In this document: positions 10,984-62,495 of the stretch, piece by piece
Position numbering within the stretch: the first letter of the stretch is position 1
How the letters are laid out: every line of letters begins with the position of its first letter
Assembly: GCA_021784575.1 (NCBI GenBank)
Contig: JAJYHX010000007.1
Location: 34,468 to 98,467, forward strand
DNA length: 64,000 bases
Direction of reading: 5' to 3'
Source: Nitrospirota bacterium
GTDB taxonomy: Bacteria; Nitrospirota; JACRHJ01
The notes under the pieces: model-generated
What the model was told of the DNA's origin: nothing
Seen by the model: the letters and a program-made list of their open reading frames with translations, nothing else
Database searches by the model: none
Position numbers and translations under genes: made by a program

Positions 10984-13900
10984 TTGAAAAAGAGAGCCTT
11001 GCTTATACTCCTTGCCCTTGCCCTGCTTGTCGGGGGAATCAACCTTTTCACGAGGGGGAGATATTTTTCCGGGAAGATAAAGACGTACATCGTCGAGCAG
11101 GCCGGGCGCGAGCTTGGGATGAAGGTCGGTATGAGAGGGCTTGTCTTTAACTTCTTCCCGGCGTATATAGACATCGAAAAACCCGCCGTGAGCGGATGGG
11201 ACCCGAAGAACCCGGCGCGTTCCGTCGGCGCCGAAAAGATACGGGCTTACATAAGCATAAGCTCGCTTTTAAACAGGCGTATCGACATACGCCGGATACT
11301 TGTATACGGGGCTTCTCTCGACGTCGCGAGGCTTCCGGACGGCAGTCTCGACATCGACCCGCTCCGGGCCAGGATTAACGAGCTTCTGAAGAAGAAACCG
11401 AAGCGTGGGGCGTATAATATCGAGGTGCATGAAATCGTCCTGCTGGGTGCGCGCGCCTCATATTCCGACGCGGCAAGAAAAATATTCGTCTCGGTGGCGG
11501 ACGCCGGGGTGGATTTCCGGATAAACGGTGCGGGTGGCAACCGGCCCGGCTTAACCAGTCTTGTCGGCGGCGTAAACAGGAGCCGGTCTGTCGGCTACTG
11601 GGCCGGTTTTAACCTGAAGGGCGTTTCCGTAAAGGCGGAAGGCCGTCCCGCCGTCCGGGCGAGCCTCGAAGGCGACGCCGAATATGCCCGCGGAAGTATT
11701 AATATCCGGAGCCTCAGACTTGATTCAAACGGGGCGAGTCTGAAAGTTTCCGGCCATGTGCTGCCTGCCAAGAGACCGGAGCTTGACGTGAAATTTTCAT
11801 CCCGCGCAGACCTTTCGCTTTTGGGAAGGCTCGGCCTTGTGAAAAACCCGCCTGCGGGCCTTGCGAGCCTTGCCGGGAGCCTGAGCGGGACGTATCCCCG
11901 GCTTTCCGGGACGGGTGTTTTTTCTCTCAAGAAAGGCGCATACCGCGGGATGAGGATCGACGACATTTCTTCCAGGGTAATATTTGACAAAGACCGGCTT
12001 TCCATGCCGGAGCTTAAAAGCAGGCTTTTCGGCGGTAGGATAAACGGAAACGTCCTGGTTGACTTTTCGGGAGGAAGGCCGTCGTTCAGCTCGCAGTGGA
12101 ACCTGAAAGACCTCGTGAGCGGAGAGTATACGGCCTCGAACCCGAAGCTTCGGTTTATCCCCTGGTATGTGGTAAACGGCGATGTTAACATCTCCGGCAC
12201 TGGGTTTAAAGGCTCCGAGATTACCGCCTCCGGCGCTGTTTCGGCCATAAAATACAAAAGGCCGCACAACAGAAGAGGCGTGAGCGGAGAGCTGGATGAG
12301 GTAGAGCGGGCGAAGGCGGTTTTTCGCATGGGCGGCGGGATGATACGGGTAGACCAGGGCTATGCGCGGTCCAGGAATACGACCGTCTCGTTCGCCGGTG
12401 TCGTGGGCTTCGACGGCGATTCCGATATATCCATAAAGGCGCATTCCGACGACGTGACGGACATATCGAAACTCATAGGGTATTCAAACGTCCACGGAAA
12501 GCTCGACCTCGGCGCCTACATGCAGGGAAGCATATTGAGGCCGACTATAACCGGAAGGGCGAGGATTACCGACGCCTCCGCAAACGGGATTTCGTTCCCG
12601 GAGGCCAAGGGAGACGTGAAACTCAAGGACTGGCAGCTGTCTTTAAGCAATTTCATGATGCGCAAGGGAAGCGGTAGCTTTGTCATGGACGGGACGGTGT
12701 TTTTCGACGGCGGCGGCGGAACGGTTAACGACCCTTATTTCAAGGCGAGGCTCTCCGTCCGCAAGGTTGACGCCAGGGAAATCATCGCGATATTTTATAA
12801 GGACATACCGGTTAACCTGACTGCCAGGGGCGTGATGAATTTCTCCGGCACCGCCGGCAAGTTCACCGGAGACGCCAGGCTTGTTACCGGCGCGGGCGAT
12901 GTCTACGGCCAGCCCCTGGACAAAGGCGTTGTAACGGCGAGACTTACCGAAAAGGGAATCAAATTCCCGAAGATAATCGCCGTGCTTGGCCGTGATGTCG
13001 TTACGGCGTCCGGGGCTATAGGTTTTGACAATACCTTCAGCGGCAAGGTCTCTTCCGCGAGGTTCAGCCTTGCGGCCCTGAAGGTTCTTTCCGATACCGG
13101 GGCCCCGGTAAGCGGCAGCGCCTCATTCTCCGCAACCGGCAAGGGGACGTTTAAAAAACCGTCGATAGACGCGGACGTAAACACGCTGAAACTCAGCTTC
13201 GGCGGCGTGGACTTGGGGCACGGCAAACTTAAGGCCAGGCTCCGGGATGATAACCTCAAGCTCGACGGGACGGCGCTTGGCGGGAAGGTGTCTCTCGCGG
13301 GCTCGCTCGGCCTGTCGGAGCCTTACAAATGGGGCGGAAGTCTTGTCTTTAACGGGGGCAGGCTGGAACCGTTCATCCGCCTTGTATACAAAGGGCTGCC
13401 GAAGGATGCCTCGATTGTCTCGACGGGCGTGGTCGCCGGCGGGGGCGAACTTTCAAATCCATCGCTTACGTCCGCGCAGCTTGACTTGAAAGATGTGAAC
13501 GCGATTGTATTTGGCAGGAAGCTTTCAAACGCCGGGGACATACGTATCGCATACCGTGACGGGAAGCTCGACCTCGAGTCTTTCAACATGCGGGGGGACA
13601 ATCTTTCGGTTTCAGCCTCCGGAGTCGCCGCCGGCGTGGACAATGTGGATGCGAAAATCCGCGTGGATGCGAGTCTCGATGTGCTAAAGCCCGTATTAAA
13701 AGACGTGGATTATATAAGCGGTCGAGGCCAGGCCGACATACAAGTAAAAGGCGGCCTTAAAGACCCGACCGTCTCCGGATCGGTAAGGGTAACGGACGGC
13801 GGGTTCAAGGTGCGGGAGATTCCGCAGAGGTTCGATAAAATAAACGCCGAGGCGCACATAGACGGTTCGGAGTTCCGCCTGACCAGGTTCGGGGCCGGTT

Positions 13901-14925
13901 TCGGCGGCGGGACAATCTCCGCAATGGGCGACGGGAACCTCAAGGGCTGGAGCATTGACAATTTCGGGTTCGGCATAACCGCAAAAAATATTGGAGTTAA
14001 GATTGCGGAAGGTCTTACCCCCGTCATCGACGCATCCATGAGATTCGAGGGCGCGGGCGGGGTGATGAACGTCGGCGGCAATGTTTCGGTTCGCAAGGCG
14101 CGGTATGCGAAGCGGATCGACTGGAAGAGCTGGCTTGTTCAGATACGCAAGAAAAGAAACCTGCCTGCCCCTTCCAGTTCGGGAGGTTTCAAGGACGTAT
14201 CGCTCGACATACACGTCACCGCGGCGGATACCTTGGAAATAGACGACAACGTGGCCAGGGTGCCCGCCTCGGCGGACGTTTATGTGCGCGGGACAATCGG
14301 GAGGCCGGTTCTGATAGGCAGGATGGAGGCCGGGAGAGGCAAGGTGTATTTCAGGAACAACGAGTTTACCCTGAAAAACGCCGTGCTGGAATTTGCCGAC
14401 CCTAACAAATTCAACCCGCTCATCGACCTTACAGCCGAGACCACGGTAAGGGACTACACGATAACGATGACGCTAACGGGTACGGTTGAGAGGGTAAACG
14501 TGGACCTCGTTTCCGACCCGCCGCTGGAGGAAGGCGACATCATAACGCTGCTGGCGCTTGGGAGAACCTCCGACGAACTGAAAGGGCATGAGGCGGCCAT
14601 TACGACCGGCGAGGCCGCGGGCTTTGTTACGGGACAGATACAGGACGCCGTGGAGAGCCGCGTCAAGATGATTACCGGTTTCGACCGCTTCCAGATAGAC
14701 CCGTACATGACGAGTTCCGGCGCATCCAGCGGGCCGCGTCTTACCGTGGGCAAAGGCCTTTTCTCGGACAAGATATACCTTACGTATTCCTCGAATGTCG
14801 GCACGACCGAAGACCAGTATGTAAAACTTGAATATATATTCAACAGGCACCTTTCCCTTGTCGGCGAGCGTGACGAACTCGGTCACTACGGCGGAGACCT
14901 GAAGTTCCGGTTCGAGTTTAAATGA
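10984..14925 (+). CDS. tamB: TamB/AsmA-like translocation and assembly module protein
   Basis: 1313 residues with an N-terminal membrane anchor (about residues 4-20, ALLILLALALLVGGINLF) and a very long, beta-rich periplasmic part of degenerate AsmA/DUF748-type repeats. The DUF490/TamB C-terminal domain (about 950-1313) includes SADVYVRGTIGRPVLIGRMEAGRGKVYFRNNEFTLKNAVLEFADP and ends in a barrel-like strand pattern (GGDLKFRFEFK). TamB-type proteins bridge the periplasm and are implicated in phospholipid transport and outer-membrane protein assembly with a BamA/TamA partner. The partner gene follows with an ATGA overlap. The first usable start is TTG 10984; an in-frame TGA sits 21 bp upstream and only a weak GAG precedes it, since a dispersed repeat abuts the gene. 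Confidence 0.88.
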   Translation: MKKRALLILLALALLVGGINLFTRGRYFSGKIKTYIVEQAGRELGMKVGMRGLVFNFFPAYIDIEKPAVSGWDPKNPARSVGAEKIRAYISISSLLNRRIDIRRILVYGASLDVARLPDGSLDIDPLRARINELLKKKPKRGAYNIEVHEIVLLGARASYSDAARKIFVSVADAGVDFRINGAGGNRPGLTSLVGGVNRSRSVGYWAGFNLKGVSVKAEGRPAVRASLEGDAEYARGSINIRSLRLDSNGASLKVSGHVLPAKRPELDVKFSSRADLSLLGRLGLVKNPPAGLASLAGSLSGTYPRLSGTGVFSLKKGAYRGMRIDDISSRVIFDKDRLSMPELKSRLFGGRINGNVLVDFSGGRPSFSSQWNLKDLVSGEYTASNPKLRFIPWYVVNGDVNISGTGFKGSEITASGAVSAIKYKRPHNRRGVSGELDEVERAKAVFRMGGGMIRVDQGYARSRNTTVSFAGVVGFDGDSDISIKAHSDDVTDISKLIGYSNVHGKLDLGAYMQGSILRPTITGRARITDASANGISFPEAKGDVKLKDWQLSLSNFMMRKGSGSFVMDGTVFFDGGGGTVNDPYFKARLSVRKVDAREIIAIFYKDIPVNLTARGVMNFSGTAGKFTGDARLVTGAGDVYGQPLDKGVVTARLTEKGIKFPKIIAVLGRDVVTASGAIGFDNTFSGKVSSARFSLAALKVLSDTGAPVSGSASFSATGKGTFKKPSIDADVNTLKLSFGGVDLGHGKLKARLRDDNLKLDGTALGGKVSLAGSLGLSEPYKWGGSLVFNGGRLEPFIRLVYKGLPKDASIVSTGVVAGGGELSNPSLTSAQLDLKDVNAIVFGRKLSNAGDIRIAYRDGKLDLESFNMRGDNLSVSASGVAAGVDNVDAKIRVDASLDVLKPVLKDVDYISGRGQADIQVKGGLKDPTVSGSVRVTDGGFKVREIPQRFDKINAEAHIDGSEFRLTRFGAGFGGGTISAMGDGNLKGWSIDNFGFGITAKNIGVKIAEGLTPVIDASMRFEGAGGVMNVGGNVSVRKARYAKRIDWKSWLVQIRKKRNLPAPSSSGGFKDVSLDIHVTAADTLEIDDNVARVPASADVYVRGTIGRPVLIGRMEAGRGKVYFRNNEFTLKNAVLEFADPNKFNPLIDLTAETTVRDYTITMTLTGTVERVNVDLVSDPPLEEGDIITLLALGRTSDELKGHEAAITTGEAAGFVTGQIQDAVESRVKMITGFDRFQIDPYMTSSGASSGPRLTVGKGLFSDKIYLTYSSNVGTTEDQYVKLEYIFNRHLSLVGERDELGHYGGDLKFRFEFK

Positions 14926-17741
14926 CAAGAAGAAAATTTATCCCGGTCATTTTCCTGATTATTTTTTTCCTGCCGTCTCTTGTATGCGCCGCCGGTCTTC
15001 AGGGCGGGCATAAGACAAATCCGACCGGCGCCCGGCCCAGGGTTGCGGATATAATATTCGACTATCCCGGAGAGCTGCCTTCCGATGTATGCCAGCTCGT
15101 GGAGATAAAAAAGGGCGGGCCTCTGTCTCCCAGGTTGATTCGGGATTCCATCAAGCTTTTATACCTTAAGGGGCTTTTCAAAAATATAATAGTCGATGGC
15201 AGGGATACCCCGCGGGGGACGGTGGTTACGTTTCACCTCGTGCCCAGGATGCTGATATCCGGGGTCGAAATCAGGGGCAACAAATATCTCTCAGGGAATA
15301 AAATAATATCGAGGATGACGCTCAAGGAAGGCGATTTCGCCGATCAGTTCAAGCTTCGCGCATCCAGGAACGCCGTGCTGAAATTCTGCCGCAGCGAGGG
15401 ATTCCCGGATGCCGGCGTTATTGTCAAGACCAGGAAAACAAGCCCCCTCGCCGGAGACCTTGTCGTGCAGGTGGAGGAAGGCAGGCCGACAACAATCAGC
15501 GCAGTGGGCTTCAGGGGCGTCCTTGCCGTGCCGGAGAAAAGACTTGATAAAATAGCCGCCAAGGCGGGCATAAAAAAAGGGAAAAGGCTTGTCGACAGCA
15601 AACTCGACGATGCGGTTACGCGGCTTACGGATTACTATGTCAGGAAGGATTATGTCAGGGCGGACGTGGAGCGGAAAATAGCGGTTTCGCCGGGCGCGGC
15701 GGCGGTTGTTTTCAAAATAAACGCCGGGCCGAAACTTAAGGTAACTTTCAAGGGGAACCGCACATTATCAAAAAAAGAGCTTAAAAAAATCCTCACGTTC
15801 CGCGAAGACAGGGACGTAAGCGAGGACAGCATCTCGGAGAACCTCGACAAGCTCCAGGCTTATTATAAAAAAGAAGGATTTTATTTCGTTCAGGTAAAAT
15901 CGGCCATGGAGGAGACCGCGAGGCCTCCAAGGGTAAGAGTCGCGTTCTCCATAACCGAGGGGCCGAGGACCGCTCTCGAACACGTGTATTTAAAGGGCAA
16001 CAAGGCCGTCAAGACAGGCCGGATAAAAAAGGTGATGGCGCTTAGGGGTTCCGGGCTTATCATAAAAGAGCGGGTAACAGACGAGGCCGTAAAGCAGGAT
16101 GCGGAGAGGATAAAAAACCTTTACGAGACGAAAGGCTTCCTTAAGGCGCGGATAAGGCCGGAACCGATAAGGTTTTACGACAGGGACAGAAAGGCCGACG
16201 TGACGTTCGATATTGCCGAAGGCCCGATGACTTACGTATTATCCCGCAACATCGTGGACGGCGCGGGTGTGCCGAAGGAAAAGATAGAGGCGGCGATAAG
16301 TCAGAAGGTCGGCGAGCCGTTTGACCCGCAGCTGATAAACGAAGACGAAAACAGCGTCATAAGCCTTTTCTCCAAGGCGGGGTATACCCGCGCGACAATA
16401 GACACAAAGCGGGAGTTTATCGACGGAGGCCGCGCAGTCAACCTCTCCTACGTTATCAGCCAGGGCTCCCCGGTAAAAATCGGGAGGATAATACTTCGCG
16501 GGAATGTGGTTACAAAGGACAGGACAATCCTTCGGGAGATGCTTGTAAAGACCGGAGACCCGCTCGATTACGAAAAGATACTCATCAGCCAGCAGAGGCT
16601 GTATAGTCTGGGTTTCTTCAGCCAGGTCCGGATAGAGCCCGTGGCTCCGGAAGAAGCCGGAGTTTCCAAAGACCTGCTGGTGAGCGTCCGGGAACGGGAT
16701 GCGGGCAGGGTAGAGTTCGGCGCCGGCTATGGGGACTGGGACAGGCTCCGCGGCTTTGCGCAGGTGGGATATATAAATCTCTTCGGGCTCGGCCATTCCA
16801 TATCGCTCAGGGGCGATGCGAGCTTCAAGGAGACTAAAGCGGTCGCGACATACAAATGGCCCTGGTTTATGGGGATGAACGTGAAATACCGTACAAGCCT
16901 GGTATACCTCAATGCCGACAAGCCGAATTATCATATCAGGGACTTAATCGGTATCACCGGCTTCGACAAGACCTTTGGAAAGCATGTCACGACATCACTG
17001 AATTACCAGTATGAGAAAATAAAGTTCGGCGATATAAATGCGGGGGCGGCGCTTGCGCCGGAGGACAAAAACAAATCGAACCTCGCCAGCATCACGCCGT
17101 CGGTGATCTTCGATTTCCGGGACAATCCGTTCAACCCTACGAAAGGCTCCGTTCACGCCCTGATACTGAAATACGCCAGCACGTTCTTCGGCTCTACCGT
17201 AAACATGTTCAAGGCCACCGCCCAGACAAGCTGGTACTACCCGCTTTACAAGGGAATAATCGGCGCGTTCTCCGCGCGCGGTGGCATAGAAAGCTCGCTT
17301 GGCGGGAAATTTGAAATACCCATATCTGAAAGGTTCTTCCTGGGCGGTGCGTCCAGCCTGCGCGGTTACAGCTATGAAAGCGTAGCTCCGCTCGACAGTT
17401 TCGGCAATCCCGTCGGCGGAGACTCGATGGCTATCTTCAACTTCGAGATACGTTTCCCGCTCCCTTATAATTTCGGAATAGTGACGTTCCTGGATGCCGG
17501 AAACGCATGGCTTTTAAACAAGAACGTCTCTGCCGCCGCTTCCGTAAATGGAAGCCCGATGACGGAGCCCGGAAGCGGTTTTACGAATGGCGGCACAAAC
17601 GGCCTGCGATACGGGGCCGGACTTGGCCTTAGGTATGAGACCCCTGTCGGCCCTCTCAGGCTCGACTACGGTTTCAAGCTGAACAGGCGCCCCGGCGAGT
17701 CCATCGGCGAACTGCATTTTACGCTTGGACAGGCGTTCTGA
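14922..17741 (+). CDS. BamA/TamA-family outer-membrane assembly protein with about seven POTRA domains
   Basis: 939 residues. Signal peptide (1-23, FLIIFFLPSLVCAA). I count seven POTRA units by recurring boundaries ending in G-x-P or equivalent: about 41-108, 110-188, 190-270, 271-348, 350-434, 435-516 and 517-595. Residues 596-939 are the 16-strand Omp85 barrel: GRVEFGAGYGDWDRLRGFAQVGYINLFGLGHSI, the loop-6 motif GGASSLRGYSYESV, and a C-terminal strand ending LGQAF with the terminal aromatic expected for BAM substrates. BamA normally has five POTRAs and TamA three, so the number is unusual. Direct coupling to tamB (4-bp overlap) favours a TamA-like partnership, but as the only Omp85 seen here it could be the main BamA. 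Confidence 0.88.
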   Translation: MTRRKFIPVIFLIIFFLPSLVCAAGLQGGHKTNPTGARPRVADIIFDYPGELPSDVCQLVEIKKGGPLSPRLIRDSIKLLYLKGLFKNIIVDGRDTPRGTVVTFHLVPRMLISGVEIRGNKYLSGNKIISRMTLKEGDFADQFKLRASRNAVLKFCRSEGFPDAGVIVKTRKTSPLAGDLVVQVEEGRPTTISAVGFRGVLAVPEKRLDKIAAKAGIKKGKRLVDSKLDDAVTRLTDYYVRKDYVRADVERKIAVSPGAAAVVFKINAGPKLKVTFKGNRTLSKKELKKILTFREDRDVSEDSISENLDKLQAYYKKEGFYFVQVKSAMEETARPPRVRVAFSITEGPRTALEHVYLKGNKAVKTGRIKKVMALRGSGLIIKERVTDEAVKQDAERIKNLYETKGFLKARIRPEPIRFYDRDRKADVTFDIAEGPMTYVLSRNIVDGAGVPKEKIEAAISQKVGEPFDPQLINEDENSVISLFSKAGYTRATIDTKREFIDGGRAVNLSYVISQGSPVKIGRIILRGNVVTKDRTILREMLVKTGDPLDYEKILISQQRLYSLGFFSQVRIEPVAPEEAGVSKDLLVSVRERDAGRVEFGAGYGDWDRLRGFAQVGYINLFGLGHSISLRGDASFKETKAVATYKWPWFMGMNVKYRTSLVYLNADKPNYHIRDLIGITGFDKTFGKHVTTSLNYQYEKIKFGDINAGAALAPEDKNKSNLASITPSVIFDFRDNPFNPTKGSVHALILKYASTFFGSTVNMFKATAQTSWYYPLYKGIIGAFSARGGIESSLGGKFEIPISERFFLGGASSLRGYSYESVAPLDSFGNPVGGDSMAIFNFEIRFPLPYNFGIVTFLDAGNAWLLNKNVSAAASVNGSPMTEPGSGFTNGGTNGLRYGAGLGLRYETPVGPLRLDYGFKLNRRPGESIGELHFTLGQAF

Positions 17742-20573: not shown

Positions 20574-22403
20574 ATGAAATCAGGCGGTTTCCCATTGGAG
20601 GGCCTCTTAAAAGCCGCGACACTCTTCTTCGCGGCGCTGCTCGCGGTCTTGACCATCAGCAGCCTCTCGCTAATCTACAAGACGAGGAAATACCTTGAGA
20701 GCGGGATGGACAAGAGGCTTCTGAACGCCTCGGACATAGTCTCGAGGGAAATCCGCGACCGCTATCCGGAGTCCCTCAACGACCCGCGTTACCTGAACTC
20801 GCTGATGCAGCAGGAATCCCTTTTGAGCCTGATAATCCTCGATCTTCGTCAGGGCGTGATTATCGACGCTTCCGGGAGAAGGCATAGCGGCGAACAGTTC
20901 ATCCTCAAGGGCATTAACGGGCAGGATTTTAACCTTGCCGCTTCAGGCAAGGTTAAAATCTCTCCGATTTACATGAACAAAAAAATGAGGCTCCGCTCGG
21001 TCTATTTCCCGGTAAAGGACCCTATGGGCAGGATTATTGCCGTAGGCGAGGCCGCGCTCGACGCCGGTTATATCGAAGACCTTACGCAGCAGGGGACGAC
21101 TTACTTCATCCTGAAGTCCATGTCGATAGGTTTCCTGCTTATCGCCGTATTGTATGTCATCAGGACAATGGCCGGCTCTCGCAAGAAGCTCCTTCAGACG
21201 GCAAAAGGCGCGCCGGTGGATGTAAGCCGTAAAGACCGGGACGACATATCATTTGTAATAGACACGTTTCAGCTTACCATAGCCTCTCTGAAAGAGAAGG
21301 AGAAAGAACTAAACGAGCTTAAGAACAGGGCCGAAGAGCGGGCGCGCAGCGTAGAGAGCATTAGCGAGACCATCCTGAAAAACATTCAGAGCGGCGTTAT
21401 TACGTTCGACGCGGGGGGTACGGTGCTGACCGCCAACGAGTCCGCCGGGGCGATACTCGCAAGAGACAGGAACGCCTTGCCGGGAAACACTTGCCCGGAA
21501 TTGTTCGGAGCCGGAAGCTGGCTCTCCGCGCTGGTGGAAAAGGCCGTAAGGAAGGGACGGGCCCAGAACAGGTCCGAGGGGGAAATAAACACGCCCGCCG
21601 GGAAACGCTGGATAGGCGCGGGGATTTCACCTCTTCTCCGGGAAGGAGCTACGGGCGGCGCGGTGCTCGTGTTCACCGACATCACAGAGGTAAAAGAGCT
21701 CCGGGAGATGATGGAGCTTAAGGAGAGGATAGCGCTCTTGGGGGAGATGTCCGCGGGGATAGCGCACGAGCTTCGGAATCCCATGGGCGTCATATCAGGG
21801 TATGCGGATTTCCTGGCAAGAAGTTCCGGGGATGCGCCATCCCTTGAAGCGGCGCAGAGCATCCGGGAGGAGATAAAGGGAATGGACGAGATTATACGCG
21901 AGTTTCTCCATTTCTCCCAGCCTACGGAGCTTAACGTAACACAGGTGGACTTGGGCGGGATTGTCGAGGAATCCTTCCGCGCGCTCGGGAACGACGGCGA
22001 CGGAATAAAACGAAAGGCGCTTATTGACGAAAACCTCCCGTCAATCGAGGGCGATGCCGTGCTCCTTCGGCAGGCGTTTATAAACCTGATAAAAAACGCG
22101 TACGAGGCGATGGACGGCGGCGGGAGCCTTACAATAGCCGCGGAGGTTGAAAAAGGCGACGGGCCGGAGGCGTCCGACAGGAGGTTCGTCAGGCTCGATT
22201 TCCGCGATACCGGGCCGGGAATCGACGCTTCCTCGGCCGGGAAAATCTTTACCCCCTTCTTCACGACCAAGCCGCGCGGCACCGGGCTTGGATTATCCCT
22301 CGTCCAGAAGATAATTGTATATCACGGCGGCAGGGTTACGGCGTCCGCATCCGGGAGCGGAGGCGCGGTATTTTCGATATATCTCCCGGTAAAGGCTCAC
22401 TAA
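20574..22403 (+). CDS. PilS/NtrB-type sensor histidine kinase
   Basis: 609 residues. Two transmembrane helices (about 12-36 and 182-200) flank a periplasmic sensor (about 37-180). A short linker and coiled coil (about 235-265) lead to a PAS domain (about 265-375, ILKNIQSGVITFDAGGTVLTAN), then a HisKA box GEMSAGIAHELRNPMGVISGYADFL (His near 398) and HATPase motifs: N box FINLIKNAYEAM, G1 DTGPGI, F box FTPFFTTKPRGTGLGLSLVQKI. The kinase class is the one that pairs with sigma-54 activators. The activator gene starts 9 bp downstream and pilin genes follow, so PilS-like pilus control is the best inference; a ZraS-like envelope-stress role is the alternative given the upstream operon. Confidence 0.88.
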   Translation: MKSGGFPLEGLLKAATLFFAALLAVLTISSLSLIYKTRKYLESGMDKRLLNASDIVSREIRDRYPESLNDPRYLNSLMQQESLLSLIILDLRQGVIIDASGRRHSGEQFILKGINGQDFNLAASGKVKISPIYMNKKMRLRSVYFPVKDPMGRIIAVGEAALDAGYIEDLTQQGTTYFILKSMSIGFLLIAVLYVIRTMAGSRKKLLQTAKGAPVDVSRKDRDDISFVIDTFQLTIASLKEKEKELNELKNRAEERARSVESISETILKNIQSGVITFDAGGTVLTANESAGAILARDRNALPGNTCPELFGAGSWLSALVEKAVRKGRAQNRSEGEINTPAGKRWIGAGISPLLREGATGGAVLVFTDITEVKELREMMELKERIALLGEMSAGIAHELRNPMGVISGYADFLARSSGDAPSLEAAQSIREEIKGMDEIIREFLHFSQPTELNVTQVDLGGIVEESFRALGNDGDGIKRKALIDENLPSIEGDAVLLRQAFINLIKNAYEAMDGGGSLTIAAEVEKGDGPEASDRRFVRLDFRDTGPGIDASSAGKIFTPFFTTKPRGTGLGLSLVQKIIVYHGGRVTASASGSGGAVFSIYLPVKAH

Positions 22404-22412
22404 GAGCAGGCT

Positions 22413-23768
22413 ATGGCTGAGAAGTTCAGGATACTGATAATAGAGGACAAGAAGTCAATGGCGGAGATGCTGGCCAGGACGTTCGAGGCCGAAGGCTACA
22501 TCGCGCTCACTTCCGGGACCGGCGAGGACGGGATTTCGAAATTCCTGCGCGACGGGGCGGACCTCGTCCTGACCGACCTGAAGCTTCCGGGTATGAACGG
22601 CCTTCAGGTGCTGCGCGTCCTGAAGGAAAAAAGGCCGCTGACGCCGGTCATAATGATGACCGCGTTCGGCAGCATCGAAACGGCTGTCGAGGCGGTAAAG
22701 GCCGGGGCCTACGACTTCCTGACAAAACCGTTCGATACATCGCATATGCTGGCGCTCGTGGAAAAAGCTCTTGAGAGCGGTAAGCTTGCGGCGGAAAACC
22801 TCGTGCTGAAGGAGGAATTCGCCCGCGAGCTTTCGTTCCCGATGATAATCGGAAAGAGCAAGGCCCTTACAGATGCCCTGGAACTCCTTAAAAAAGCCGC
22901 TCCCACACGGGCGACCGTCCTGATAACCGGCGAGTCCGGCACGGGCAAAGAGCTTTTCGCAAAGGCCCTGCACCACCTCTCGCCCAGGAAGGACGGGCCG
23001 TTTGTGGCGGTGAACTGCGCGGCAATCCCGAAAGATCTGCTCGAATCGGAGCTTTTCGGGCACGAAAAAGGCTCGTTCACCGGGGCCGAGGCCAGGAGAC
23101 TCGGCAAATTCGAGCTTGCGGACAAGGGGACGCTTTTTCTGGACGAGATAGGAGACATGGCCCTTGCGCTTCAGGCCAAGCTTCTCCGGGCGCTTCAGGG
23201 CGAGATGATAGAGCGCGTCGGAGGGGCGGAGCCTTTCTCCGTCGATGTGCGGGTCGCCGCCGCAAGCAACCGGGACCTTGAAAAAGCCGTCCGTGAAGGA
23301 AGTTTCAGGGAGGACTTGTATTACCGCCTGAACGTGTTCCCGCTTCGCATCCCGCCTCTGCGCGATAGACGTGATGACATCCGGATCCTTGCGGAATATT
23401 TCATCGGGAAATACGCGGCGGAACTTAAGAAAGGGTTGTTCACAATTTCGGACGAAGCCATTGAAGCGCTCTCCGGCATGGAGTGGAAAGGGAACGTGCG
23501 GGAGCTTGCCAACTGCATAGAGAGGGCGGTCATAATCGCGGACGGAGGCGAGATCGGCCCGGAATGTCTTGGCCTGGCCCCGAAGTTTATGGACGAATCG
23601 TCCGGCAGCCTCCAGAGGACTGCGTCGATTGCCGCAAAGGCGGCGGAGATGGAGGCGATAAAGGGCGCTCTTGCCGCCTCCGGCGGTAACAAGAGCCGCG
23701 CCTCGGAGCTTCTCGGCGTGAGCTACAAGACACTGCTGACAAAGATAAAGGAATACGGCATTGGGTAG
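22413..23768 (+). CDS. sigma-54-dependent response regulator, PilR/NtrC type
   Basis: 451 residues. Receiver (1-120) with D55 in LVLTDLKLPGMNG and K in DFLTKPFD. AAA+ sigma-54 interaction domain (about 145-380): Walker A GESGTGKE, the sigma-54 contact loop as GSFTGA (second residue Ser rather than the usual Ala), Walker B TLFLDEIGDM, arginine-finger region FREDLYYRLNVFPLRIPPLRDRRDDI. C-terminal Fis-type HTH (about 410-451, AASGGNKSRASELLGVSYKTLLTKIKEYGI). It should activate sigma-54 promoters when phosphorylated by the adjacent kinase. A -24/-12 promoter lies 106 bp after its stop, in front of the pilin genes. Confidence 0.93.
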   Translation: MAEKFRILIIEDKKSMAEMLARTFEAEGYIALTSGTGEDGISKFLRDGADLVLTDLKLPGMNGLQVLRVLKEKRPLTPVIMMTAFGSIETAVEAVKAGAYDFLTKPFDTSHMLALVEKALESGKLAAENLVLKEEFARELSFPMIIGKSKALTDALELLKKAAPTRATVLITGESGTGKELFAKALHHLSPRKDGPFVAVNCAAIPKDLLESELFGHEKGSFTGAEARRLGKFELADKGTLFLDEIGDMALALQAKLLRALQGEMIERVGGAEPFSVDVRVAAASNRDLEKAVREGSFREDLYYRLNVFPLRIPPLRDRRDDIRILAEYFIGKYAAELKKGLFTISDEAIEALSGMEWKGNVRELANCIERAVIIADGGEIGPECLGLAPKFMDESSGSLQRTASIAAKAAEMEAIKGALAASGGNKSRASELLGVSYKTLLTKIKEYGIG

Positions 23769-23850: not shown

Positions 23851-23886
23851 GCCACTCCCGATTTTATGCGGAGTGGCATTTTTTTT
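23851..23886 (+). terminator. rho-independent terminator of the kinase-regulator operon
   Basis: GCCACTCC (23851-23858) pairs with GGAGTGGC (23870-23877), 11-nt loop, followed by A and eight T. It would end transcription from upstream before the pilin genes. Its right arm and T-run are also the sigma-54 promoter at 23874. Confidence 0.8.
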
Positions 23887-23889
23887 GCT
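23874..23889 (+). promoter_or_regulatory. sigma-54 (-24/-12) promoter of the minor-pilin operon
   Basis: TGGCATTTTTTTTGCT has GG (23875-23876) and GC (23887-23888) exactly 10 bp apart, matching the RpoN consensus TGGCAC-N5-TTGCW in the invariant positions. The predicted start near 23900 gives a 15-nt leader holding the GGAGG of the first pilin gene. A weaker sigma-70-like pair, TTGAAC (23819) and TAAAAT (23842), 17 bp apart, lies just upstream. Confidence 0.7.
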
Positions 23890-23914
23890 TGTTCAGAATG
23901 GCAGGAGGGCCGGT

Positions 23915-24535
23915 ATGAGGTTTCTGAGAAATAAACGGGGTGTAACCCTGCTGGAATTGATGGTTGTGGTGGCGATTATAGGAGTGATGGTGGCAATTGC
24001 CGTCCCGTCCTATTACGCATGGCTGCCGAAGCTGAAGGTAAATCAGGCGATATTCCAGCTTTCCGGCGACTTGCAGTATGCCAGGTTGAGAGCCATATCC
24101 GAAAACATCCCCTGGGAAGTGCAATTCAACATTGCAGGCAATTCCTACAGCATATACAGGGATCCAAAAGACACCTTTAATCCCGCCAACCCTTCCGGCA
24201 CCGCCTCTCTCGTCAAGACCGTGCAGCTCGTGGACAATTCAGGCAGCATAATGGCCGTGAGGTCGGTTGTCTTCGGCTACAATGTCACAGGTAACGATCC
24301 CAACGGAGCGCCACTTCTGGCCGGGGGGGCCTCCAACGCGGTATTCAGTTCTTCTGATTATGAAAAATTCCTGCCGAACGGGACAGCCGATTACAACGGT
24401 GCGGTTTATCTTATACCGCAGGAAGACCTGACTGCAAACAGATACGACCGGAACAGGGCCATAACCATTACCGGCCTTACCGGTTTGATAAAGACCTGGC
24501 AGCATGACTCATCACAATCAGGAAGCTGGAAATGA
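23915..24535 (+). CDS. prepilin-like minor pilin, GspH/FimT family
   Basis: 206 residues. Class III prepilin signal KRG-VTLLELMVVVAIIGVMVAIAVPSYYAW: cleavage after G9 exposes V, E at position +5. The helix continues into LKVNQAIFQLSGDLQYARLRAISENIPWEVQFN, the GspH/FimT signature in which a short helix precedes a beta sheet. Probably assembled at the tip of a type IV pilus or pseudopilus. GGAGGG precedes ATG 23915. A frame that stays open to 23873 starts in the terminator and is discarded. Confidence 0.9.
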   Translation: MRFLRNKRGVTLLELMVVVAIIGVMVAIAVPSYYAWLPKLKVNQAIFQLSGDLQYARLRAISENIPWEVQFNIAGNSYSIYRDPKDTFNPANPSGTASLVKTVQLVDNSGSIMAVRSVVFGYNVTGNDPNGAPLLAGGASNAVFSSSDYEKFLPNGTADYNGAVYLIPQEDLTANRYDRNRAITITGLTGLIKTWQHDSSQSGSWK

Positions 24536-24539
24536 CAAA

Positions 24540-24995
24540 ATGAAAACCAATATCGGGAACGAAGGATTTACGCTGGTGGAGGTGATGATAGCCTCCGTCA
24601 TACTTGTGATAGGTCTGGTTGCCCTCCTCCAGCTTATCAGCATTGCCATTTACGGCAGCGTCGCCGGAAGAGATATTACGATAGCCGACAATATTGCGAA
24701 CCGGCTCCTGCAGGATATGGATAACCGGGGCTATCAGAACGCCATGAACAACATGACTTCTTCAGGCACGATCACGGATGGGACCAATACGGTCTATGTT
24801 TATGGAAGCGCTGTTACAACGGCCGGTTATTCCAGACAGCCGGTAACCGTGGGGCCGAAAAATTTTTACCTGAACGCCCAATATACGGACAATACGCCCT
24901 CAAAGGGTCTCTCGACCGTCAGAGTCTATGTAGACTGGACGACCACCGGCCATCCGCATACCGTATCGTTCACGTCTTATTTTGATATGTCCTAA
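24540..24995 (+). CDS. minor pilin PilV-like
   Basis: 151 residues. Prepilin signal NEG-FTLVEVMIASVILVIGLVALLQLISIAIYGSVAGRD with E at +5 after the predicted cleavage, the PilV pattern (VE-M-IA-VI-VIGL). The rest is a small beta-rich domain. ATG 24540 with GGA 9-10 nt upstream is preferred; an in-frame ATG at 24504 would overlap the previous gene. Part of a FimT-PilV-PilW-PilX series, the usual minor-pilin order. Confidence 0.87.
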   Translation: MKTNIGNEGFTLVEVMIASVILVIGLVALLQLISIAIYGSVAGRDITIADNIANRLLQDMDNRGYQNAMNNMTSSGTITDGTNTVYVYGSAVTTAGYSRQPVTVGPKNFYLNAQYTDNTPSKGLSTVRVYVDWTTTGHPHTVSFTSYFDMS

Positions 24996-25007: not shown

Positions 25008-28000
25008 ATGTCTGCCCAGAGAGGTTTGAAAGACAAAAAAGGTTTTACTCTTATAGAACTGATGGTCGCCATGGCTGTAAGTCTGATTATAATAGCCGCC
25101 ATATTTGGCGTCTACGAGACTATGAACAAGTCGAACCTCTCCATAAAGGCGTCCTCCGACATGCAGCAGAATGTCCGCACCGCTGTCGATTCGATAACGA
25201 AGATGATGGTAAACGCCGGTTACCAGGGCCAATGGAACAATATCCTGGGAAACCACAGCACTGCTGTTGACGGCCTTGTTTACCAGAGGGCCTCGTACGA
25301 CAATTCATTATCCGCCCCCAACAATACCGGCGTAGTCTCCGGCCCCAACTCGATATGTTTTACCTATTACGACGATAATCACGTGTTCAGCTCCGGCTCC
25401 AACGGAGAATGGCGGGTGCAGATATACATGGACAGCGCCGACCAGGAAATACTCGCCAATTTTGAACAGTTCAACACAACTTCGACCCTGTTCGGTCCGG
25501 CTGCGAACGGGTGGAGTGTTGTTCTGGCAAGGGGCATCAGCAACCTGAGGTTTCAGTATTACAACGCAGACGATAACGACATCACTTCGTCATTGTCTTC
25601 GCAAAGTATTGGAACCGTAAGAAAAATCACGGTTACCGTTACCGGGAAAACTTCCTTTGCGCAGTTTATATCTAACGGCTTCAGGTCGTTCAGTCTTTCG
25701 ACGGATGTTACGCCCGTGAACCTTGGCATCGCAGGGCATATTGTCGACGCTTATCCTCCGGCGACTCCCACGGGACTCTATGTAAGCGATCCGCATACCT
25801 GCACCAAGCTGACGGTTCAGTGGAACGCCAACAAGGAGGTCGATCTTGCCGGATATACTATATTTTACGGCATAGCTACCGGCAAATATGACCATAGAGT
25901 TGATGTGGGCACGGTTTCGAACAACGGCATCTGCACCTATACGCTGCCTCCTCCCGGCGAAACCCTGAATGCGGGCACGGAATATTATATTACCATAGGA
26001 GCCAGCAACACCAGCGGCCTGATGAGCAATCCTCTGGCGACGGAAGTTTCCACCGGTGTCGTGACGCCGGGCATTGGCACCAACCAGACTACCCCAACCG
26101 AGTATCCGCCCAGCGCGCCGGTTGTTATGGCCGCTGCCGGGCCGGGCGATGGCGCTATAACCCTTACGTGGACCGGCAACCCGTCCAACGAAGGAGTGAC
26201 AAGCTACAGGGTATACAGGATGTCGATTCCCAATCCGAGCAGTCCGCCTGCTTTCAGCTATCCGATACCCGATACCCCTGAGCCGGCAAATCCGGCCCCC
26301 GGGGTGCCATATCGCGTGGACACCGGCACTACAGGCAACAAGCCGGTGACCCAGGTGGTATTAAACAACAACCAATCGGGGTTTCAGTTTAAGGACTACG
26401 GCCTCCAGGGGTGCACAATGTATGAATATGCGGTTTGCGGCGTGAACTGCACGCAATCCGCCACCGGCCCGATTTCCAGTCCTTATTCCTCCGCCCAGTA
26501 TTGCACGTTATACGGCGGCAGTTATACCGACAGCAACGGCGTGCCCCATACGATAAGCTCTCCGGTTGCGGGCGAAGTGACCAAACCTACCGACGGCACG
26601 CCTCCGCCTCCGCCGACAGACCTTGTAGGCATTCCAGGGTCAAAAGTGGTGGACCTTTCCTGGACCAACCCGACCGGAGATCCGGATTTTCAGGGCGTTA
26701 TGATACGGAGGTCTACGGGCGGTTATCCCGCGTCGCCAACCGACGGCACCCTCGTGTACAACGATTACTCCTCAGCCGCCGGGCAATCCTGCACATATCA
26801 TGATACCGGCGTGGCCGATACAGACCCCCCAACCTGCTACTACTACTCCGCGTTTTCATACAACAAGTGCGGTATCTACAACAGCACTGCCGTGGAGAGT
26901 CTTAATTTTCAGGGGGCATCGACGCCCGCATGTTCCCAGCCGTGCAGCTCCGCGCTATATGGAGAGCCGCCGGCCCCGCCAATGGACAAGTACTCAATGT
27001 CGTACTGCGCGGACAAGGTAAACCTGGGCTGGCAAGACCCGTCCAACCTAACCAGCTATCCGGACTTTACCGGTTACGACATCTATCGTTCGGATAACGG
27101 CAGCACGCCGATACAGAGTAACTACAAATCGTCCAACACAAACGTCTATTCGGATACAACTTATATACAATCGCCAGGCGGCGACGGCGGCGTATACAGC
27201 TATCACGTAAGGACGACGGACTGTTCGGGCGGATTGAGCAACGCTACCTCGATAGTCACCCTTACAGCCTATCCGGGCCAGGTGCTTTACGACCCGAGCG
27301 CCGTCAACTCGACGAATACTAGCGCGCCGAACACGCCGCACACGAACATAACCGTTTCCACGGGCATGTATCATAACACGCTTATTTTTGACGCCAGCAA
27401 CACAAGCTCGCATGAGGCGGAGCTTGACGGCATGACGCTTACCTGGAAGGGCGGCGGCACCGAGACTAACGCCATGCTTACAGGCGTCTCCATTTACGAT
27501 CCGACCCAGAGCAAATGGGTCTTGGTTTACAACAACAGCAGCGGCGGCGTATCGACCGATACCCCCATAGTCTTTAATGCCAATACGCCGTTCTATATCC
27601 CACAAACCACGAACGGCATAGGCTCGGAAGAAACCGTCCCGATGCAGTTTACCTGGGAGAACGCCGACGGGACCGTGTCTTCAAGCGACGACATGCGCAA
27701 CGCGCTCGTCACCATAACCTTTAATTACAGGCTCTTCTACTACAGTTCTTACACCTCCGGTTATCTCTTGTCCGACCCCACCCTCGCCGGATGTTCCCCG
27801 GTAGTTTATAATGTTGTCCAGGCCGCAGGGCCGAATTTCATGGACGTAACGCAGAGTCAGCCCCTGCAGGGGACATTCGCCGAAACGCAGCTGGGCTATC
27901 TGACCGCTCAGCCCGGCCAGACTACGGACGTAAGTTCGTATGTTACGGATACCTCGCCGAACCTGGCGGGGATACAGTATGTGCATCTGTTCTATGCCGT

Positions 28001-29903
28001 TACCGCAAGGGATATTACCGCGCCGCCGGCCGTTGGCTCCGCGCCGGATAACATTAACCTGAAATCAAGCGTTAACCCCAGCGGCTACACCTGTATCACG
28101 ACCGTCCCTGCAAACACGGGCAATTACGTGCAGTATGAGACGTCTTTTACCAACAGCAGCGGTATCGGCACCAATAGGCCCATACCCGCGTTCGACAATT
28201 CCAGGATATGGTATTTCCTGGTCGCAAAGGACAATAACGGCAACTTTACCCGCTGGCCCGCTCCGAGCTCGCCTGACGCGATATATACTTACGACCAGCT
28301 CGGCGGCGGCGGCAACACGGCCACCACCGTTTCCGTAAAAATAACCTCGCCGGCAACCGGGAGCACTATCACTTCGTACACGACCGCCACGCTTGCCACC
28401 ACCGACACAGGCTCCGGCGTTACAAATGTCATGGTGAACGTAGACGGCGGCAGTTATCAGAGCTGCTCGTACGACTCGTCTACCGGACTATGGGACTTTG
28501 TCATTGACCCCGCGATATACAGCAACGGCACCCATACGCTGAACGCCGTGGCCACGACCGCCGACTACCACTCCGCGACGGATTCCATTACGTTCAATGT
28601 CGTCGGCGGCAGCGGGACAACAAGCGTATCGGCATCGATAGCGTCGCCGGCATCAGGCGCCACGGTATCCGGAACCCAGGTAATACAAGTCCAGTCCGCC
28701 GCGACCGGCGCACCCGCAGGCGGCATAACCGTATCGGTAAACATCGGCGGCACAATTTATCCCTGCACATACAACATCAGCGACGGCTATTACGAATATT
28801 CCTGGGATACCACTCATATTACGAACAATTCTTCGGTTTCGATATCCGCCACGGCGACATACATCGGCTCAAACGCCACTTCCTCGCCAATCTCCGTTAC
28901 TGTTAATAACGCTTCGGGCAACCTCCCGTCAGTCAGTATCGTATCGCCGGCCTCCGGCGGTCTTGTCACCGGGAGCACTACGCTTCAAATTGAGGCTAAT
29001 CCCAACGGCGGGATTATAAACTCGAGCGCTGGCGTGCAGGCGTCGTATGACAACGTCAACTGGACGCCCTGTCCGTATAACTCGGCCGACGGTTACTATG
29101 AACAGGCCATTACGGTAACGCCCCCGGTGGCATGTAAATCTTACACAATCTATGTATATGCGACCTCGACCAACGGCAGGTCAACCACGGTTCAGGAGAC
29201 CTTCTATGTAGACACGACAAGCGCCGTCTCGTGCACCATACAGCCTCCGGCCAATCCAGTGGCTACAGCATGGTATGTCGGGCCTCCGTCTAACGCGCAG
29301 GCGACTATTGGCATAACCACCGGAACAGACGGAGACGCCATAGGCGGGGTTACCGTCTCCATAGACGGCGGCACGCCCATCGCCGCAACAGGCTCCGGAA
29401 ATTCCTGGAGCTACGTGTGGAATATCCCGAGCAGCGATTCCAATACAAGCCATACCGTGTCGGCGACCGCCACAACCGTCTCCTGCACGGGCAAGTCCAT
29501 GATCGCCGCCGCGACGCCTGTAACCTTCAACGTGGGCGATGTTACGCCGCCGACGGTGAGCAACGTACAGGTCACATACACGACCAAAACGGGGTCTCAG
29601 ACAATCAGTCCCGGCACCAGTTCGAGCAGCCCCGGCAGTATTCCAAATAATACGACGCTCACGATTACGGCCACCGTTACCGATACGGGAGGTTCCGGGG
29701 TTGCTCCCGGCACTGTTAAACTGTATGATAACAATACCAATGGGAGCGGATTGGCTGCGACCAGTTATAGCGGGGGAGTTTATACATGGGACAACGTGCC
29801 GACCCCAACCAACTCCAACGCATCGTACGTCTTTAATTTCGATGCCGCCGATACTGCCGGGAACCTGACGATGACGCCCAATTACTACACCGTGACTCAA
29901 TAG
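25008..29903 (+). CDS. giant PilW-like minor pilin with fibronectin-III and Ig-like domains
   Basis: 1631 residues, several times the length of ordinary PilW (roughly 200-350). Prepilin signal DKKG-FTLIELMVAMAVSLIIIAAIFGVYETM, then a PilW-type pilin domain to about 245 (SDMQQNVRTAVDSITKMMVNAGYQG). Four fibronectin-III-like units follow (about 250-350, 370-530, 540-650, 665-765: TPTGLYVSD...LTVQWNANKEVDLAGYTIFYG; PPPTDLVGIPGSKVVDLSWTNP; APPMDKYSMSYCADKVNLGWQDP), carrying many paired cysteines. About 770-1150 is beta-rich and unassigned. From about 1150 come five Ig-like units (VKITSPATGSTI, ASIASPASGATV, VSIVSPASGGLV repeats). The modular ectodomain suggests an adhesin displayed at the pilus tip. 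AGGGAGGAAAG precedes ATG 25008. Confidence 0.85.
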   Translation: MSAQRGLKDKKGFTLIELMVAMAVSLIIIAAIFGVYETMNKSNLSIKASSDMQQNVRTAVDSITKMMVNAGYQGQWNNILGNHSTAVDGLVYQRASYDNSLSAPNNTGVVSGPNSICFTYYDDNHVFSSGSNGEWRVQIYMDSADQEILANFEQFNTTSTLFGPAANGWSVVLARGISNLRFQYYNADDNDITSSLSSQSIGTVRKITVTVTGKTSFAQFISNGFRSFSLSTDVTPVNLGIAGHIVDAYPPATPTGLYVSDPHTCTKLTVQWNANKEVDLAGYTIFYGIATGKYDHRVDVGTVSNNGICTYTLPPPGETLNAGTEYYITIGASNTSGLMSNPLATEVSTGVVTPGIGTNQTTPTEYPPSAPVVMAAAGPGDGAITLTWTGNPSNEGVTSYRVYRMSIPNPSSPPAFSYPIPDTPEPANPAPGVPYRVDTGTTGNKPVTQVVLNNNQSGFQFKDYGLQGCTMYEYAVCGVNCTQSATGPISSPYSSAQYCTLYGGSYTDSNGVPHTISSPVAGEVTKPTDGTPPPPPTDLVGIPGSKVVDLSWTNPTGDPDFQGVMIRRSTGGYPASPTDGTLVYNDYSSAAGQSCTYHDTGVADTDPPTCYYYSAFSYNKCGIYNSTAVESLNFQGASTPACSQPCSSALYGEPPAPPMDKYSMSYCADKVNLGWQDPSNLTSYPDFTGYDIYRSDNGSTPIQSNYKSSNTNVYSDTTYIQSPGGDGGVYSYHVRTTDCSGGLSNATSIVTLTAYPGQVLYDPSAVNSTNTSAPNTPHTNITVSTGMYHNTLIFDASNTSSHEAELDGMTLTWKGGGTETNAMLTGVSIYDPTQSKWVLVYNNSSGGVSTDTPIVFNANTPFYIPQTTNGIGSEETVPMQFTWENADGTVSSSDDMRNALVTITFNYRLFYYSSYTSGYLLSDPTLAGCSPVVYNVVQAAGPNFMDVTQSQPLQGTFAETQLGYLTAQPGQTTDVSSYVTDTSPNLAGIQYVHLFYAVTARDITAPPAVGSAPDNINLKSSVNPSGYTCITTVPANTGNYVQYETSFTNSSGIGTNRPIPAFDNSRIWYFLVAKDNNGNFTRWPAPSSPDAIYTYDQLGGGGNTATTVSVKITSPATGSTITSYTTATLATTDTGSGVTNVMVNVDGGSYQSCSYDSSTGLWDFVIDPAIYSNGTHTLNAVATTADYHSATDSITFNVVGGSGTTSVSASIASPASGATVSGTQVIQVQSAATGAPAGGITVSVNIGGTIYPCTYNISDGYYEYSWDTTHITNNSSVSISATATYIGSNATSSPISVTVNNASGNLPSVSIVSPASGGLVTGSTTLQIEANPNGGIINSSAGVQASYDNVNWTPCPYNSADGYYEQAITVTPPVACKSYTIYVYATSTNGRSTTVQETFYVDTTSAVSCTIQPPANPVATAWYVGPPSNAQATIGITTGTDGDAIGGVTVSIDGGTPIAATGSGNSWSYVWNIPSSDSNTSHTVSATATTVSCTGKSMIAAATPVTFNVGDVTPPTVSNVQVTYTTKTGSQTISPGTSSSSPGSIPNNTTLTITATVTDTGGSGVAPGTVKLYDNNTNGSGLAATSYSGGVYTWDNVPTPTNSNASYVFNFDAADTAGNLTMTPNYYTVTQ

Positions 29904-42957: not shown

Positions 42958-43031
42958 TGGGGCGTCGACAAGCGGTAAGTCAGGAGACTTTGGATCTCCC
43001 ATCCCAGGTTCGAATCCTGGCGCCCCAGCCA
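42958..43031 (+). tRNA. tRNA-Gln (UUG)
   Basis: Acceptor arm TGGGGCG (42958-42964) pairs with CGCCCCA (43021-43027). Anticodon stem GGAGA/TCTCC encloses loop CTTTGGA with anticodon TTG. T-arm CCAGG-TTCGAAT-CCTGG. Discriminator G and an encoded CCA at 43029-43031. It lies 7 bp after spoVG and 29 bp before prs, probably cut from the operon transcript. Confidence 0.95.
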
Positions 43032-62419: not shown

Positions 62420-62495
62420 GGGGCAGTAGCTCAGCTGGGAGAGCGCATCCCTCGCACGGATGAGGCCGTCGGTTCGATCCCGATCTGCTCCACCA
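62420..62495 (+). tRNA. tRNA-Ala (CGC)
   Basis: Acceptor GGGGCAG (62420-62426) pairs with CTGCTCC (62485-62491). D-arm AGCTCAGCTGGGAGAGC. Anticodon stem CATCC/GGATG with loop CTCGCAC, anticodon CGC. T-arm GTCGG-TTCGATC-CCGAT. Discriminator A and encoded CCA at 62493-62495. A terminator follows and an integrase remnant lies downstream, so it may be an integration site. Confidence 0.95.

Follow-up and report, generated by a model that had tools for sequence, protein, structure and literature searches.

When a type IV pilus lacks PilY1, which protein serves as its tip effector? PilY1 is listed among the type IVa pilus components of diderms (PMC10191384), and in Myxococcus xanthus it forms, together with minor pilins, the priming and tip complex (PMC7541494). 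The question is raised by a stretch of 64,000 nucleotides from a Nitrospirota bacterium (GenBank assembly GCA_021784575.1, contig JAJYHX010000007.1, positions 34,468 to 98,467; hereafter the window, genome G000), in which a FimT-PilV-PilW-PilX minor-pilin operon encodes a giant, modular PilW. We consider it probable that the head of this protein enters a FimT-PilV-PilW-PilX tip priming complex, and that the arm fused to it is a tip adhesin replacing PilY1.

The single chain of 1631 residues described in an earlier, sequence-only reading was confirmed as one uninterrupted open reading frame (ORF; Table 1), placed between pilV and pilX in the gene order. The prepilin signal recognized in that reading was also recovered: Pfam family N_methyl (PF07963) matched residues 8-33 (E 2.4e-8), indicating a class III signal at the N-terminus. 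Cleavage presumably occurs after Gly12, by the usual prepilin rule, in which case the mature protein would begin at Phe13, and Glu is found at mature position 5. In alignment, the head ends at the point where the short PilWs of Nitrospirota stop, and both alignment and predicted fold place the pilin module ahead of the extra domains. Structure prediction gave a pilin-like head resembling the J-type minor pilins XcpW and GspJ, with a mean predicted local distance difference test (pLDDT) score of 65.5. The PilW-type head of the earlier reading is thus retained as a predicted J-type pilin fold, at modest model confidence. None of the curated J/PilW family models scored above cut-off for PilW, and T2SSJ was sub-threshold in a relative (P0008); the PilY1 beta-propeller family PF05567 had no match in the PilW protein.

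The arm comprises nearly 1,400 residues of predicted immunoglobulin (Ig)-like modules. The repeated, cysteine-rich beta modules reported earlier stood up to the domain search in their cysteine content (13 of the 22 cysteines of PilW lie within residues 251-745), but not in their number. Instead of five Ig-like modules, Pfam gave four stretches of Big_7 (PF17957, E 1.8e-17, above cut-off), a domain that is not specific to type IV pili, and instead of four fibronectin type III (FN3)-like modules it gave one fn3 stretch at residues 253-343, sub-threshold at 19.9 bits against a cut-off of 25. This domain, which we take to be InterPro entry IPR003961, was matched clearly in related long pilins (P0009, E 6.4e-15; G291, E 2.2e-10). 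Residues 735-1101 were modelled as Ig/FN3-like sandwiches, a weak prediction (pLDDT 58.7). In an alignment of six sequences (the window protein, G001, G002, G005 and the metagenome proteins P0002 and P0003), nearly all invariant columns precede residue 1098, with six after it, and a WYF...YTYDQ motif closes the conserved part. Beyond this part, Big_7 is present in PilW of the window genome and of G005; the Pfam scan did not find it in PilW of G002 and G004, whose distal ends align with each other. The G005 arm (residues 261-1791) recurs, with 64% identity across 1554 columns, as the C-terminal portion of a 2442-amino-acid (aa) protein encoded on another contig of the same genome, suggesting that one stalk is used both by a pilin and by an apparently secreted protein. 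This 2442-aa protein (L031 4278-11606, contig 52) carries SBBP propeller repeats and TSP_3 repeats.

Giant pilW was present in five of the six sampled genomes of the family, with the same build in all five readable ones; in the sixth, G003, the contig stops inside fimT, before pilW. The G001 protein (1603 aa) is 76-78% identical to the window PilW, and those of G002, G004 and G005 (1489, 1458 and 1802 aa) keep the build at 23-33% BLAST identity. Proteins from another genus and from metagenomes also have this build. Between G000 and G001, the ratio of nonsynonymous to synonymous substitution rates (dN/dS) was 0.45 for the whole gene; the point estimates for five segments all lay below 1, and the interval for the last 91 residues reached up to 1.42. 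The same full-length build in independent assemblies of the family, together with this dN/dS, indicates that the fusion is not an artefact. Accordingly, the joining of two genes by an assembly or sequencing error, a possibility that the sequence-only reading had set against its own proposal of an adhesin-PilW fusion, is hardly credible, and nothing but the unusual gene size speaks for it.

PilY1 was not detected in the operon, in agreement with the earlier reading, or elsewhere in the 96.7%-complete genome, whether by PF05567 or by a phylum PilY1 profile, and both searches gave 0 of 6 in the family genomes. The separate PilY1 whose presence would have spoken against a fusion was thus not found in operon or genome, and the fusion proposal gained support. 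The first search of the genome itself was made without a positive control and carries no weight by itself. Because PF05567, which matched 24 of 61 genomes, missed several operon PilY1s, the phylum profile was made from nine PilY1s of the phylum, including those of G018 and G029. It found PilY1 in all five genomes in which PF05567 was blank (G018, G029, G037, G043 and G047), in 32 of the 61 genomes and in 272 of a phylum sample of 395, most of these 272 not having been used in building the profile.

Lengths of PilW frames were taken from a search with a PilW-head profile. Frames of at least 1000 aa were called giant, a threshold fixed after the frames had been seen; in both genome sets, the best frames left a gap between 581 and 1047 aa. 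Short frames, which in both sets may include non-PilW pilins (e.g. 126-250 aa, some with a stop), were kept. In the 61-genome set, 47 genomes had a best match at E <= 1e-9, and PilY1 was found in 0 of 8 with a giant versus 30 of 39 with shorter frames (p 7.7e-5; this and the following p-values ignore shared ancestry). Collapsed to 14 families, the counts were 0 of 3 and 10 of 11 (p 0.011). Matches in the 395-genome set were listed down to E about 4e-11, and there may be further giants, both in genomes that have PilY1 and in genomes that lack it; all PilW counts for this set hold among the matches listed. An N-terminal match was present in 108 genomes, at least 12 of them with giants, and PilY1 was found in 0 of 12 giants versus 65 of 96 others (p 5.5e-6), or, with the addition of G033, whose giant comes from the 61-genome set only, in 0 of 13 versus 272 of 382 (p 1.6e-7). 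Among the matches listed, giant PilW and PilY1 occurred together in none of the 395 genomes. The giant genomes, at least 13, belong to at least seven families (f1, f2, f13, f19, f24, f25 and f36), and f13, f19, f24 and f25 hold both giant-PilW genomes and PilY1 genomes.

The operons also differ at the PilX position. In 13 PilY1 operons read, the frames at this position were 154-215 aa and PilW was short; in 11 giant-PilW operons they were 399-595 aa, with no PilY1 alongside (outside the window, the names PilX and FimT follow position and N-terminus, without a family scan). Left out of this comparison were G002 and G271 (a contig end truncates or removes PilX), G003 (contig end in fimT), G015, G029 and G037 (PilX not called by the ORF filter), G032 and G024 (PilX absent or cut), G051 (a PilY1 operon with its genes arranged differently, 167 aa) and three operons without PilY1, in G006, G023 and G056. 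The last three combine an ordinary PilW with PilX-position frames of 521, 522 and 609 aa, indicating that long PilX tracks the absence of PilY1 even without giant PilW; PilX may be another site for a built-in tip module. PilY1-less operons of this kind lie at L092 5522-8314, L098 9080-10645 and L099 3177-5861. Among six giant arms scanned, G291 gave a clear and G130 a sub-threshold fn3 match, G031 gave a clear match to Big_1/invasin D3 and G033 a sub-threshold one to Big_1, and no module was recognized in G119 and G227. As their make differs, large arms may have arisen more than once. G291 (L102 3311-5979 and 10792-13806) has two PilX-like genes in tandem 3' of giant pilW and a second, separate minor-pilin-like gene set upstream.

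From these data, we infer both the adhesive role and the tip location of the PilW arm. In the proposed scheme, the adjacent kinase and NtrC-type regulator would switch the operon on via a sigma-54-like box, the prepilin peptidase would cut PilW after Gly12, and the arm would be exported into the periplasm. By analogy with M. xanthus, the head would then enter the priming and tip complex with the arm projecting ahead, and PilX, which lacks Glu5, would cap this complex. PilB would extend the pilus through the secretin with the arm leading, the distal Ig-type modules would meet a surface, and PilT would retract the pilus.

Several points weigh against a tip adhesin on PilW. Attaching sfGFP to PilW3 blocks function in M. 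xanthus, which is a physical objection to a large arm (PMC7541494), and modelling in that organism gives an order in which PilV and PilX lie above PilW, so that PilW does not occupy the very tip (PMC13190605). Model confidence is modest in both head and middle (mean pLDDT 65.5 and 58.7). Shared ancestry does not enter the p-values, and the within-family contrasts are the better evidence. PilY1 is also missing in 9 of 39 short-frame genomes of the 61-genome set and in 31 of 96 of the larger one, indicating that its loss does not need a giant PilW, and at 96.7% completeness a PilY1 may have been missed. Nevertheless, a PilY1 that exists in the family and is too divergent to be seen, or falls within the 3% of the genome absent from the assembly, is very improbable: PF05567 does miss PilY1 in the five genomes named above, but the phylum profile, positive in 272 of 395 genomes, is positive in none of the 6 of the family, and the operons could be read with no such gene at its usual place.

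The operon could instead encode a pseudopilus like that of the type II secretion system (T2SS), with the giant J subunit remaining periplasmic and its arm recruiting or pushing substrates. The solved-structure matches of the head are mostly T2SS minor pseudopilins, the pilM/pilN/pilO locus also scores with T2SS models (T2SSM_b, GspD N0), and the genome has three secretins. We regard this as unlikely, because the operon contains a PilX_N domain, the genome contains pilB, pilT, pilC and two PilA-like pilins, and like operons of relatives carry PilY1, a protein absent from T2SS according to PMC10191384. Rather improbable, too, is an arm that is no adhesin and acts as a passive spacer, steric cap or decoy, PilY1 having simply been lost. 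Such an arm would be consistent with the Pfam scan, which recognized no ligand-binding domain (vWA- or lectin-like) in it, with the absence of PilY1 from short-frame genomes too, and with the strong divergence of the minor-pilin genes in the genus beside a kinase and a regulator that are 83-93% identical. By contrast, giants in at least seven families, none with PilY1 and with arms of varied make in the six scanned, suggest a shared role.

It is quite possible, though we would stop short of calling it likely, that Nitrospirota pili have repeatedly changed their tip effector, in four families or more, PilY1 and a covalent PilW arm (with an enlarged PilX cap) being interchangeable. Distal modules and the whole minor-pilin cassette would move between close relatives while the regulator stays conserved, resulting in a variable, exchangeable tip. 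A phylum in which PilY1 is absent wherever a long-armed PilW is seen offers a natural experiment on the function of PilY1, whether tip adhesion, priming or signalling.

Modular pilins, in which a class III signal and a small pilin module are followed by grafted C-terminal domains, are an already described kind (Raynaud et al. 2021; PMC8179133). IPR003961 is among the extra domains in their 15 commonest architectures, and the most extreme multi-domain example named there has 860 residues and 12 motif copies (PMC8179133). In Streptococcus sanguinis, a monoderm without PilY1, modular pilins are proposed as tip effectors, and PilC carries an Ig-like and then a lectin module (PMC9934059). Giant PilW shares signal, pilin module and grafted domains with S. 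sanguinis PilB and PilC and would be, by analogy, their likely diderm counterpart. Unlike the modular pilins named, it has 1631 aa and an estimated ten or so modules, its modules are borne by a J-type PilW, encoded in a FimT-PilV-PilW-PilX operon of a diderm, and its occurrence tracks the absence of PilY1. Like the PilY1/PilC tip adhesin, the arm would be a large effector on a minor-pilin tip complex; PilY1, however, is a non-pilin with a type I signal (in M. xanthus, PMC7541494) and a C-terminal beta-propeller (PMC8179133), whereas giant PilW starts with a prepilin signal and is not matched by PF05567. The predicted fold of its head is that of GspJ, XcpW and EpsJ, whose solved chains are armless T2SS proteins of 154-198 residues. 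In CofB of enterotoxigenic Escherichia coli (type IVb), likewise a minor pilin of large size, the pilin module is followed by two further beta domains (PMC8179133), but CofB is a trimer of another pilus class and is set beside PilW by description, not sequence. The new part is the mutual exclusion of giant PilW and PilY1 in diderms, of which we found no report in the open-access literature searched, most subscription papers and all preprints lying outside it. If true, the proposal made so far for a monoderm, that modular pilins can take the tip-effector role in the absence of PilY1, would come to cover diderms as well, and arms more than 1000 residues long.

Table 1. Features of the pilW operon and its regulators, in window positions.
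Feature	Position	Strand	Basis and remarks
Sensor histidine kinase (PAS, HisKA, HATPase_c), PilS-like by position	20574..22403	+	Pfam; adjoins regulator in G001, G002, G003, G005
NtrC-type sigma-54 response regulator, PilR-like by position	22413..23768	+	Response_reg, Sigma54_activat, HTH_8; 88-93% identical in G001-G004
Terminator-like hairpin 3' of regulator gene	23851..23886	+	8-bp stem, 11-base loop, T run; read from sequence
Sigma-54-like box TGGCAT-N5-TTGCTT, overlapping hairpin	23874..23890	+	Pattern match; upstream of fimT in relatives
FimT/GspH-type minor pilin	23915..24535	+	N_methyl and GspH (Pfam); start by ribosome-binding site
PilV-type minor pilin	24504..24995	+	N_methyl (Pfam); TIGR02523 E 2.1e-6, below cut-off
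PilW gene	25008..29903	+	ATG start, 1631 aa, no internal stop
PilW head, prepilin signal and J-type pilin head (residues 1-245)	25008..25742	+	Pfam, alignment, predicted fold
PilW stalk, FN3-like cysteine-rich modules (residues 246-745)	25743..27242	+	One sub-threshold fn3, alignment, Cys count
PilW middle region, conserved (residues 746-1100)	27243..28307	+	Alignment; two Ig/FN3-like sandwiches in low-confidence model
PilW distal end, Big_7 Ig modules (residues 1101-1631)	28308..29903	+	Pfam, alignment
PilX-type minor pilin, 498 aa	29918..31414	+	PilX_N E 3e-7; Thr for Glu at mature position 5

The operon start at 23915 given in the sequence-only reading was upheld, since the fimT ATG at this position is preceded by AGGAGG; a longer ORF opens with GTG at 23873. 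For pilV, an internal ATG at 24540 is the likelier start. In the pilin complex, a tip position has been assigned to PilX and GspK, both of which lack Glu5 (PMC7541494). The pattern TGGCAY-N5-TTGCTT, fixed after the site had been seen, matched once in the window versus 0.02 expected. This sigma-54-like box lies 5' of fimT in all six family genomes, reading TGGCACGGAATTTGC in G005, and is kept in G004 though the regulator gene there is now across the operon in the opposite direction; a sigma-54 promoter upstream of fimT is likely from these patterns. In G000-G003 the box shares bases with the terminator-like hairpin of the regulator gene, which is absent from our hairpin scan, whose loop limit was 8. 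Identity between G000 and G002 was 83% for the kinase and 88% for the regulator, versus 23% for PilW, 30% for PilV and 54% for FimT (90 aa only); for G004 the regulator, FimT and PilV gave 90%, 34% and 32%. The minor-pilin set thus appears either to change much faster than its regulators or to have been exchanged as one unit.

The genome (2.1 Mb, 14 contigs) gave seven N_methyl matches, three of them in the pilW operon, six T2SSE matches above cut-off, three secretins and one prepilin peptidase. Judged by MutS, the closest named relatives (85% identity) are Nitrospirota, and the phylum sampled is accordingly taken to be this one. The search for pilA and pilBCD, also named in the sequence-only reading, was positive. 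One locus holds pilB (MshEN and T2SSE), pilT, pilC, two PilA-like pilins, a second kinase-like gene and an NtrC-type regulator; another holds pilM, pilN, a PilO/T2SSM-type gene (PilO 21.5 bits against a cut-off of 22; T2SSM_b above cut-off) and a secretin. The type IVa parts PilB, PilT, PilC, PilM, PilN, PilO, secretin, PilD and a PilA-type pilin are therefore present, and an ORF at the PilP position (L040 8915-9736) had no Pfam match. The secretin beside pilM-pilN (L040 6325-8883, contig 6) is oddly built, with TPR repeats at its N-terminus and a cohesin domain (E 4.5e-7) at its C-terminus. Within the window, adjoining TamB-like (1313 aa) and BamA/Omp85-type (939 aa) genes at 10984-17741 fit a diderm envelope, and two tRNA genes lie at 42958-43028 and 62420-62492 (Rfam).
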